A stretch of 64,000 bases of DNA, taken from contig JAMAHW010000047.1 of NCBI GenBank assembly GCA_023627715.1, positions 124,001 through 188,000 on the forward strand, read 5' to 3'. Position numbers and translations under genes: made by a program. Under the pieces are notes generated by a model, which worked only from the letters and a program-made list of their open reading frames with translations, made no database searches and was not told the DNA's origin. This document shows, piece after piece, positions 26,945 through 31,843 of this stretch (within the stretch, counting starts at the first letter, position 1; each line of letters begins with the position of its first letter). Source of the DNA: Periconia sp. R9002 (lineage: Eukaryota; Ascomycota; Dothideomycetes; Pleosporales; Periconiaceae).

Positions 26945-27835
26945 ATGAACAACAAACGCAAATATTTCGAGATGCCCGATTTTGATACACCACCCGACAC
27001 TCTCGTCAGGCTTGGCCAAATCATCCATGACTATCAGAACCCAGCAGACGTTGTAGCACCGCCTATCCAGCGTGTCCCCGATGTGATTTCCAGCACGCAG
27101 TTGAACTGGCACTTTAGTAAAGAAAAACTCGTTAGCGGCTCCGTCGGCGTGTGGACCCAGTTCCTGGCCTCAGTGTTGGGCATTAGTGGCGATGTAAAAT
27201 TGCTGCTCGAGCGCGAGCAAGGCGATGTACTCAAGTTCGACAAGCTCGAAACGTATTCCATCGCTCCAGATATCGAGTATGTTCGTGCCGCAATGGCGAC
27301 GCCGCAGGCGCGACGCTACTACGAGGACAATCCGCATGCATCTGCGTTCATGGTCACAGGCATAAAGATTGCGCGCGGTGCAGAAATCGAACGACTCAGG
27401 CGCGTCAAGTACGGGGCTGAAGGTGGCGCTGGTTTCCACCTGACGTCAACAACAGGGTCGCCAGTCACGCTTGGTCCGAAGGGGTCTGTAGAGAGGGGTA
27501 CAGCGACAAAGTTTGGGATTTCGGGTTCATCGGATTTTGTGTTCGCATACAGACTCAGGAAAATTCAGATGACTCGCAAACTTGCTGTCACTGGGTCCAA
27601 AGACTATGTGAAGGGAGCGGTTCATGATCTGCCTGAAGGTTCGGCTGAGTGGATCCCTGAAGTGACCGCAGCGACGAAGGCATTCGAAGTGACCGGTTTC
27701 GAAGGCATAGATTTCGGTGCGGAGCTTATATATTCTGGTTACAAGATTCTAGACATTGACGACAGTGGTGATGGGGCTAAGAATGAAGAAGCTGTTGAGA
27801 CGGTGGGATTGGTAGTCAAGGAAACGGATGCTTGA
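26945..27835 (+). CDS. Gasdermin-like pore-forming cell-death protein (candidate)
   Basis: Intronless, 296 aa, no signal peptide and no clear transmembrane helix. I read it as a fungal gasdermin-like protein (RCD-1/HET-Q1 group), which on proteolytic release oligomerises into membrane pores and kills the cell. Visible support: an N-terminal LVRLGQIIHDYQNP segment, a mid-domain strand AFMVTGIKIARGAEIE (near 135), and a late strand SSDFVFAYRLRKIQM (near 200) after a KFG turn. Their order mirrors the strands of the gasdermin N-terminal domain. The last 40 residues are acidic and poor in structure, fitting the short inhibitory tail of fungal members. The strongest support is context: a subtilisin-like protease gene lies convergently 93 bp away, the known het-Q1/het-Q2 arrangement. 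The family was recognised by pattern, not by search; a fast-evolving fungal-specific protein of another kind remains possible. Confidence 0.7.
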   Translation: MNNKRKYFEMPDFDTPPDTLVRLGQIIHDYQNPADVVAPPIQRVPDVISSTQLNWHFSKEKLVSGSVGVWTQFLASVLGISGDVKLLLEREQGDVLKFDKLETYSIAPDIEYVRAAMATPQARRYYEDNPHASAFMVTGIKIARGAEIERLRRVKYGAEGGAGFHLTSTTGSPVTLGPKGSVERGTATKFGISGSSDFVFAYRLRKIQMTRKLAVTGSKDYVKGAVHDLPEGSAEWIPEVTAATKAFEVTGFEGIDFGAELIYSGYKILDIDDSGDGAKNEEAVETVGLVVKETDA

Positions 27836-27928
27836 GAGGTTGCCTCTATGGTTTAGAGTTATTATCTCGAAGGCTTTCACATCTATTTTGAGCACGCGCA
27901 GCTATATTTATCGTAACGGCCGTCTCAT

Positions 27929-30297
27929 CTACCCCATTCCCTCTTGTCCCAACTGCAACGCATCAAAATACAGCTTCCTTATCTCACTCAAATCTCCCTC
28001 ATGCATCATCTTATCCGTACTCACCAGCTCCCAAGGGCACACATACGAGAAACCCCCAGGAGTCCGAAGATACCGCCCGCCCGCCATTTTCCAAAACAAA
28101 TGGCGCATTCCTTGGGGTCGATCCACATATCTCCAAACAGCAATATTCTCCGGATCTGCCGTAGACATATCTTCCCTTCCGCGTAACACGCGCCCAAAGT
28201 CCATAGTCAGCGCACATATGGCAGCCATCAATGCCGTAGAACTCGATGTCCCGGATGATGTCTTCCACATGCCCTCTATGCCATCTTCACGCCGACCGCC
28301 TTCGAGCTTTTCTGGCCATGGGCATAGTATGTTAGATCCCAGTGTAGCTAGATTATCGTTGTTGTCGTCAATTCCAGCCGGAGGGTTGCATCCCAGGCTA
28401 TGGCCGTTCTCGTCGACAGCGTTCACGCGGAAGACGCGACGGTCGGTTGCTGGGTACGGGTTCTGGCGCCGAATTCCAGAGTTGGATGCCGCTGCGAACA
28501 TGATAACGTTTTTAGCCATCGCTTGGGCAATGGCGTGGTCCAAGTCGTGCCTTGGCGGTCCTTCGAACGCAAAGGACATGGAGATTATGTTGGCCTTGAG
28601 CGTATTTGTAGCAAATAGGATAGCCGGCATGATATAAGTAAGATGTGCAGCGGTAATAGACGGCTTCATACCTGGCGAACACGTTCGAGCGCAACCTTTC
28701 CCTTCTCACCGTCGAATTCCCTATCGGAAAATACCCGGAGCACAGAAAGCTCCACATATGGCGCGACCTGTAGTATCAGACCCACCATTTGCGTTCCGTG
28801 ACCTTCGGTATCAACAGGCTCTATAGGTGGTTGCTCTTCAAGAGTTGTAAAATCGAAGAACCTGGTCTTCTCTGGTGTACTTTTCCATCTTTTCTTAATG
28901 TAGGGATGTTCTGCGTCGACTCCAGTGTCCAGCACTACGAGGTGAACTGGCTGGAGAGCCTTCTCGAACCTTTTTACTACCAGCAGCGTCTTCTTAAATT
29001 CCTCTAGCCACGGTCGAGCGGTCGGGCCAGCGGTATGCGACGTTCTTGATATCGTCAGCTTTAAATATTCTCCAGTCATCGGGCATGGCCTACTGGGTTT
29101 GCGGTTCCGGAATTTCACCAATTTTGACCTGACAGACAGGTTTGAATGAGTCTTGGTTGGCCCTGGCCACAATTGTATATAAGCTACGTACCAGTTTTTT
29201 TTGCAAAAGTTTTGATCAGACTACCATTGTTACTCTCAAGTCCGTAGATGTATTCCATCGTCGAATCTTTCATCCGTTTTCGCGTCTTCTTTGACCAGTC
29301 ATAGTAGGAAGATTCCACGGTGGGAGTACTAAAATACTGATAATAAAGATTAGTGTTCATGCTCACTTCTAGAAAGAGCTTGTGAGCATGAAGCTGCTTT
29401 ACGGTTCCCCTTGGCTCGTTGACTTGACCAATGATCAATTTGGTCAATGCCATGCCTCGCAGTAAAGGCCATATAGAGCGTAGTCGTCCTGGCCAAGATG
29501 ATTTGGTTATACCACCACAACCCAAGTTGAGCATTGCAGCAACGCTACTCGGAAGAAAATGATAGCGGGCTTCTTCCAGACCCACCCAAGATGGATTGCT
29601 GAGACCAGTCAAAGAAGATGCAATGCAAGTATACTCCGTTTCCCCTTTGGCATTTCGAAATTCGACGGGATTGACGTCGAGCGGTGTTGCTATGGCTGCA
29701 AGTGCAACCTTCCAGATTGGCAGTTCTACCCGTGATTGGCCAAGACCTGACAAGTAGCTTTTGAACAGCTTTGGATTGGCGAGGTCACTTGGATCCGTGG
29801 CCAGAACTAGGGTAAGAGCTCTATCCCTGGCCAGGTCTTTGTCATAAAAGGGAAGTTCAGGATTACCGTGTTGATTGCAGCTACTAATCATTCGCTTTAA
29901 TCTTTTCTTGTACGCACCGCTTCGAAGCCACGTTATTCCTGGAACAATGTTCAGGGATCCGTGGGGATATGGGAATCCGAGAGTTTGGAGCCACTCGCGA
30001 CAGGCAGGAATGCTCTTCCCATACGTCAGCAGGTAATCACGTCATCGAACAATAATTCCTCACAAGTTGTAGTCGTCCCAATAGAATGGCGATGATCGCT
30101 CCCCATTCCGAGCCGACAATAAGGTGAAAGTATTCGCAAGGCAGCGGGGCGTCGACACCGGGGGCAGCTGCGCTCATCACTTCTTCCAGTATCACGAGTG
30201 CTGACCAGCATCGTGCTCCTCCTCCATTCAGGGAGAGTATTCTCACATATGGTTCCGATACATCTCTTATACGGACTCGGTACTTTGGATGGTCCAT
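27929..30297 (-). CDS. Patatin-like domain fused to subtilisin-like (S8) protease
   Basis: Predicted protease partner of the gasdermin-like protein. Exons: 30297-30064, 30014-29192, then a doubtful junction, 29003-28672, and 28594-27929, giving about 684 aa if a 188-bp intron (29191-29004) is accepted. The N-terminal part is patatin-like: RILSLNGGGARCWSAL near residue 13 and HLIVGSEWGAIIAILLGRL near 58. Where active patatins have Gly-x-Ser-x-Gly, this reads GSEWG, and no Asp-Gly-Gly/Ala motif is seen, so the lipase is probably dead. The C-terminal S8 domain keeps all catalytic residues in subtilisin order: Asp in VVLDTGVD (about 28930), His in EGHGTQMVGLI (about 28800), oxyanion Asn in AAASNSG (about 28490) and Ser in SSGTSSSTALMAA (about 28245). 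Frame problems at 29015-29200 leave a pseudogene or two-gene reading open. The start at 30297 is uncertain because the frame stays open upstream. Confidence 0.72.
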
Positions 30298-30758: not shown

Positions 30759-31843
30759 ATGAGCAGTTCCTACTTTCAAACTGAATGGAAATGGGATGCT
30801 GCCCGATATAAGTACTACTATGTCGACGCAACTGGACAATACATTTACAGTGACGGGATTTACCCAGACCCTCACGAAGTGCACGTTTCGAGCGACCAAT
30901 ATGGGCGACGTATCCAGAGTGGTGAAGAAGCGTCATACGATTCCTTCGACTCTAAAAGTCAAGACGTTCAACGGCACGAACCTACAGCAAGCGTATATGA
31001 CTACTCTCTACTCAGTCAACTAAAACTCGCTCCTGAATCTGGTCGAGACGATGGCAGCTCCATGTTTGCCAATTTACCGGGGAGCCTTCATCACATCAAC
31101 CCCTTGAAGGAATGTATCTCCCTTGTCGTTTGCCATCATTTGCTCATATCGGATGAGAGCGGGTGCTCTTTACCGTGGGAGCATTATCACCCATATCTTG
31201 GGTACACTAATCCAAGCATGGCCCTGTACTTAGACGTCAGCAAGGAGGAGCATAATCTTGTGATCAACCTCGGCTACAGCCCAGTGAGCACAGTAAGTTG
31301 GGAACGTTCTTACTGTAAGCCCATGATGTAAAAATCGCTAATCATACGTCAGTCCGCTTTGGTGGCACACTTGCGTGACGCAACACGAAATTATACTCAA
31401 TGGTCAGGGATGTGCGTAGCAAGCAAAAAAGGAACAATGTTCGGTCGTGGCTTGGAATGGAAGAAAATGTACGAGGCCGAGTTGAAACATTACGACTGGC
31501 TTACAGTAGCATTCATGCCTTCGCTAACAACTGTACGTATACGTTATGGTCCACATCTGTTAGACGCTATTTACAATTTATCGGCTAACCGTAACCATTA
31601 TAGCAGATACGTATGGGTGTATTCTACGTTAGCGGCATTATCTGCAGCCGATGCCGCCGATGGACCAAGTTAGGGAAATACTGTTGTCGCTGTAAGAGGC
31701 TGCTGAGGGATGAGGTACACATCGACATGGACGAAGTTTCGAGGGGAAGGATGGAAGGGATAATGGAGGGAAGTGTTGGTGCGATTGGAGCGGTCGTTAC
31801 TGTTGGGACACTTCTCTTCCTGAATTTTCTTGCGATGCCTTGA
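30759..31843 (+). CDS. Fungal protein with CxxC zinc ribbon and C-terminal hydrophobic segment
   Basis: Function not recognised. There are three exons, 30759-31292, 31353-31532 and 31604-31843, with introns of 60 and 71 bp (GTAAGT and GTACGT donors). All junctions are in phase 0 and give 317 aa. The N-terminus has a Trp/Tyr-rich segment (TEWKWDAARYKYYYVD then TGQYIYSDG) of a type seen at the start of many ascomycete proteins of unknown function, possibly a small WW-like fold. Near residue 250 is CSRCRRWTKLGKYCCRC, whose paired CxxC motifs suggest a zinc ribbon. The last 25 residues (SVGAIGAVVTVGTLLFLNF) form one hydrophobic helix, so a tail-anchored membrane protein is likely. It is divergent from the S8 fusion gene and within the repeat-bracketed island. 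A role with the cell-death pair is inference only. Confidence 0.65.

Follow-up and report, generated by a model that had tools for sequence, protein, structure and literature searches.

A 64,000-nucleotide stretch of the 42.9-Mb genome of Periconia sp. R9002 (contig JAMAHW010000047.1; C47:124001-188000), referred to here as the window, carries a fungal gasdermin (fGSDM) gene and, convergent to it, a gene encoding a subtilisin-like (S8) protease fused to a patatin-like domain. The two genes probably form a regulated-cell-death module, in which the gasdermin is activated via proteolytic release by the convergent protease. By sequence and structure model, the gasdermin consists of a pore-forming core that is followed by a variable linker and an acidic tail, and its neighbour is a multidomain subtilase. 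The stop codons of both genes are 93 bp apart, exactly the tail-to-tail spacing given in the original prediction made from the DNA alone. The evidence is good for the family membership of the pair and moderate for its linkage elsewhere.

The gasdermin gene occupies exactly positions 26945 to 27835 (+) as an uninterrupted single exon coding for 296 amino acids. Under a simple base-composition model, the probability of a frame staying open over this length is approximately 6e-7. The gene product is homologous to the solved structures of RCD-1 and HET-Q1 across the pore-forming domain, and the 296-amino-acid gasdermin-like gene of the original prediction was thus found as described. Homology to the HET-Q1 pore domain was detected at 3e-12, and RCD-1 provided the closest solved structures by both sequence and fold. 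The fold predicted for the protein is that of a gasdermin rather than an unrelated one. A homologue search with the window gasdermin gave 60 proteins at E ≤ 0.001; named close relatives are those of the Pleosporales Decorospora gaudefroyi (56% identity) and Lophiotrema nucula (51%). Sequence and model support the assignment of the open reading frame (ORF) to the fungal gasdermin family. No gasdermin relative was found in 54 stretches of viral contigs.

The pore-forming core (residues 1–211; 26945..27577, +) was delimited by model secondary structure, the alignment with RCD-1 and HET-Q1 and conserved motifs, its boundary being taken from the model. It is followed by a variable linker of low model confidence (residues 212–246; 27578..27682, +), recognized by conservation, predicted local distance difference test (pLDDT) values and the HET-Q1 alignment, and by a C-terminal tail with three short strands (residues 247–296; 27683..27832, +), placed by alignment and model. 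Conservation is low at residues 229–247 (mean top-residue frequency 0.23) and amounts to 0.43 at residues 248–260; Asp256 is present in 97% of the aligned gasdermins (n = 40). The pLDDT is 46 in the model blocks covering residues 221–240 and falls below 50 at residues 223–236 and 238–241, after which the three strands begin. HET-Q1 is reportedly cut by HET-Q2 at F238 (PMC10989679). Residue 222 of the HET-Q1 chain is aligned with residue 218 of the window protein, and the F238 cut maps to approximately residue 234, within the linker, if chain and protein numbering agree. The part beyond the mapped cut comprises about 62 residues, compared to 40 in HET-Q1. Counted from four residues after the FAYR core, the tail (73–104 residues) has a net negative charge in all 40 proteins, a figure that stands without a control set of tails. 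By analogy with HET-Q1, the linker may be the protease cut site and the tail an inhibitor of the core. At the column of residue 287, near the C-terminus, cysteine is the commonest residue (78% of 40 gasdermins); the window protein has another residue there.

The fusion gene is located on the reverse strand (27929..30297, -), with the ATG at 30297 and the stop at 27929. It shares four stretches with P0061, the protease of L. nucula, at 69, 46, 52 and 57% identity and without internal stops; the third match starts only at the 55th residue of its stretch, after an unconserved linker. Exon 1 (30064..30297, -) encodes the first part of the patatin-like domain, with GSEWG at the nucleophile motif (Glu codon at 30106-30108). 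Intron 1 (30015..30063, -; 49 nt, GTGAGG...AAG) contains a CTGAC branch-like site, and its removal makes the match to P0061 ungapped. Exon 2 (29188..30014, -) covers the remaining patatin-like domain, with Ser at the catalytic Asp position (29616-29618); it was tested down to 29193, and its last bases are presumed. Intron 2 (29129..29187, -; 59 nt), with the non-optimal donor GTAGCT, was placed by eye in the unconserved linker. The subtilase is divided between exon 3 (28672..29128, -), which encodes the linker and the first subtilase half with Asp (28927-28929) and His (28798-28800), and exon 4 (27929..28624, -), encoding the second half with the oxyanion Asn (28481-28483) and Ser (28244-28246), the C-terminal tail and the stop. 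Between them, homology places the 47-nt intron 3 (28625..28671, -; donor GTATGA).

The cut-off of the Pfam subtilase family PF00082 (21.8 bits) was exceeded in both halves (29.2 and 32.5 bits). The Asp, His, Asn and Ser boxes are all present, and Asp, His, the oxyanion Asn and Ser are common to P0061 and to another fusion protein, P0062. The structure model of P0061 is confident mainly in its subtilase part. In the homologue search with the protease, the 7991 candidates sharing most words were scored. The sequence supports a minus-strand gene encoding a subtilase with a patatin fusion. The triad had been predicted to be intact; its boxes are indeed there, but they are split over two exons, and the intron between these lacks an AG at the end that homology predicts.

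The fusion of a patatin-like domain to the protease, also part of the original prediction, was recovered narrowly. The joined exons 1 and 2 score 27.9 bits with the Pfam patatin family PF01734 (cut-off 27.7 bits; model positions 1–172 of 191), and the frame of exon 1 alone stays below the cut-off (22.6 bits). P0062 reaches 35.8 bits and P0061 22.5 bits, the latter below the cut-off. The nearest solved patatin is CapV, a phospholipase of the cyclic oligonucleotide-based antiphage signalling system (CBASS), with a weak match (E=0.015, residues 1–72 of P0062). In the window protein, P0061 and P0062, the nucleophile motif reads GSEWGA, with the Ser replaced, and the Asp of the Asp-Gly motif is exchanged for Ser (window, P0061) or Ala (P0062). 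Both catalytic residues are therefore gone in all three fusion proteins, none of which shows the combination of GxSxG and Asp expected of an active phospholipase. For comparison, 11 of 20 patatin loci of this genome were tried; three (L033, L034 and L048) had no usable ORF and one (L035) was a false motif match. In the seven remaining, the nucleophile region reads GTS in six (L032, L036, L037, L039, L040 and L042) and GTG in L043. The Asp position was reached only by L032 and L037, both of which have GTSTGG and Asp-Gly. From its sequence, the patatin-like domain of the fusion looks catalytically dead, and an active phospholipase as a second effector was rejected, since the catalytic residues are absent. 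The common GSEWGA motif suggests a single ancient loss maintained by constraint and not a recent decay, although three sequences are few for this purpose; P0061 and P0062 share only 34% identity. A homologue search with the patatin region, scoring the 7997 candidates sharing most words, returned the query alone. One contig of the viral collection (L031:5001-5066) contains a 22-residue stretch 55% identical to residues 65–86 of P0061, just past the lost nucleophile position; it was the one match of this kind.

In L. nucula, the contig with the gasdermin P0009 and the contig with the protease P0061 both measure 1,589,828 bases and are presumably the same; the two genes would then be linked in this species as well. 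In the genome of Periconia sp. R9002, three queries gave four gasdermin-like places. Two of these, the window copy and C33:117947-118675, are uninterrupted over the match. The gasdermin on C33 lies <1 kb downstream of a DUF7580-S8 protease gene in the same direction (L022:2546-6293) and has an acid-rich tail end. The copies on C11 and C62 have a stop within the match and look decayed in three-frame translation, where introns are possible. No S8 or CHAT protease was among the matches listed near these two copies (9.9-kb stretches); on C11, about 60 kb separate the copy from the nearest listed S8 match. A partnership of the decayed copies with a CHAT protease was rejected, as none of at least seven CHAT places in the genome was listed on C11, C62, C33 or C47. 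In published work, a gasdermin gene was counted as clustered if a gene for an S8 or CHAT protease lay no more than 10 kb from it (PMC10989679); the S8 gene of the window falls well inside this distance. The rough chance of such closeness is 0.003 for one gasdermin, calculated with 16 S8 loci; regrouping the 20 S8 matches gives 17 loci, with no material change. Since the window pair was the starting point, only the C33 pair and the L. nucula pair count as independent.

Three side observations concern these loci. Of the decayed-looking gasdermin copies, one (L012:1974-5322) is on the same strand as a HET-domain gene (PF06985) and about 0.7 kb from it. Another (L013:4350-5350) consists of matching pieces in three frames with stops between them. 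At C58:169413-177633, S8 matches are found on opposite strands about 7 kb apart, on a contig without a match in the gasdermin searches.

A gasdermin-protease module is of a kind already known in fungi. Around 1900 gasdermins were reported from 400 fungal genomes, about 80% of them clustered with protease genes; S8 proteases are neighbours of approximately 63% and CHAT proteases of 19% (PMC10197012). The window pair agrees with the two-gene Q2-like (Q2L) clusters in having a gasdermin with a short C-terminal tail next to a multidomain S8 protease in one genome. It differs in the protease companion, for which ANK, TPR, WD40, NLR and kinase-like domains are given in the excerpts of PMC12881547 and PMC10197012, where a patatin-like domain is not named. 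The Q2-like proteases comprise 18 architectures over about one third of roughly 1500 sequences (PMC10197012). The patatin-S8-gasdermin arrangement was not named in the titles and abstract starts surveyed, a comparison that leaves the 18 Q2-like architectures aside and does not establish novelty. With HET-Q1/HET-Q2 of Podospora anserina, the window shares a gasdermin homologous in the pore domain and a subtilisin-like protease; HET-Q2, however, is a protease of 388 amino acids (PMC10989679), whereas the window encodes a longer fusion protein and has both genes in cis. The original prediction had drawn on het-Q1 being activated by an adjacent het-Q2. This analogy was rejected, because het-Q1 and het-Q2 are described as idiomorphs, i.e. 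different genes at one locus (PMC12881547), so that a pair in cis rather resembles the Q2-like clusters. RCD-1 of Neurospora crassa is the nearest solved structure, but the window protein has a longer tail and a protease neighbour. Compared to CapV and the fungal patatin-like phospholipase PLP-1, the patatin-like domain is homologous but without the nucleophile Ser and the dyad Asp. Of the similar module originally proposed, the identities of the gasdermin, the subtilase and the fusion hold, but not the het-Q adjacency; in addition, the patatin looks dead and the protease has a splice-site problem.

In the resting state, the tail would keep the core inactive, and the patatin-like domain, having lost both catalytic residues, might act as a sensing or oligomerising module that holds the protease quiet. 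Upon a signal, the protease would cut the linker at about residue 234, as mapped from F238 of HET-Q1. Once the tail has left, the core could insert as a ring into the plasma membrane and thereby kill the cell or hyphal compartment. As both partners are present in one genome, infection or damage sensing is judged a likelier trigger than HET-Q-type allorecognition; a role in allorecognition is possible. More tentatively, the dead patatin may be the regulatory or ligand-sensing half of the protease that activates the gasdermin. Such a pseudo-phospholipase would free the subtilase on sensing a lipid, a membrane state or a small signal, and would have been kept in the fungus of the window, in L. 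nucula and in a metagenome relative at greater distance. The ligands of the sensors in fungal gasdermin clusters are described as a major open question (PMC12881547). A sensor descended from a well-studied enzyme, with the active site lost much alike in three proteins, would be a small and concrete system for a ligand search and might bear on how effector enzymes of immune receptors turn into pure sensors.

Several observations weigh against activation of the gasdermin by this protease or against parts of that reading. The gasdermin model is moderate (mean pLDDT 73, 35 residues below 50), and the best Foldseek TM-score is 0.46 by query and 0.61 by target, with a root-mean-square deviation of 6.5; the structure of HET-Q1 itself was not among the matches listed in the fold searches. 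A Pfam scan of the gasdermin ORF up to E = 1 gave no match, which is read as a gap in the library because the searches against solved structures do match, and the bGSDM model of PADLOC gave no match with the window gasdermin alone. Another patatin of this genome (L029/L043) reads GTGTGG and may likewise be inactive, so that the nucleophile has been lost outside the fusion, too. In its patatin part, the P0061 model is of too low quality for use (26–43 in 10-residue blocks across residues 131–390), and linkage outside this genome comes from one named species, by equal contig sizes. Finally, intron 3 has an ordinary donor, but its end predicted by homology lacks an AG. Up to the next conserved strand there is only one AG, located in frame 30 nt downstream, and its use would remove 10 residues that are present in P0061, P0062 and the C33 paralogue, within a helix (H538-555) of the P0061 model. 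P0061 and P0062 run continuously and without gaps across the junction of exons 3 and 4; intact relatives exist. The isolate could use the later AG, carry a damaged allele, or be affected by an assembly error.

This junction is one reason to consider that the protease allele is broken or decaying. The gasdermin would then be an orphan that its tail restrains and that is activated by a different protease or, like RCD-1, without cleavage; RCD-1 is described as regulated by mixing of alleles and not by cleavage (PMC12881547), and two further gasdermin copies in the genome look decayed. On the other hand, the four exon stretches are free of stops and have kept the catalytic residues at 46–69% identity to P0061, the flaw is a single splice site, possibly an assembly error, and the tail is longer than that of RCD-1; a broken allele is judged rather unlikely. 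An even smaller chance is given to a het-Q-like locus for heterokaryon incompatibility, which would be polymorphic among strains and kill fused unlike cells. Such a role would agree with fungal gasdermins being het genes in two species (PMC12881547) and with patatin-like proteins taking part in incompatibility in Neurospora (PMC12881547) and Aspergillus fumigatus (PMC11138114), but het-Q1 and het-Q2 are idiomorphs, and here both partners are on one haplotype. That the gasdermin merely lies beside an unrelated intracellular subtilase is highly improbable: the genes are convergent and hence have no common promoter, but the presumed linkage in L. nucula, the gasdermin-protease pair on C33 and the clustering rate in the literature (PMC10197012) all speak against chance.

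About 460 bp from the protease gene and divergent to it lies a gene on the forward strand (30759..31843, +), read as three exons coding for 316 amino acids. As a candidate third component it gave no Pfam match; on inspection, its product shows a WW-like start, a CxxC-rich stretch and a hydrophobic C-terminal segment.
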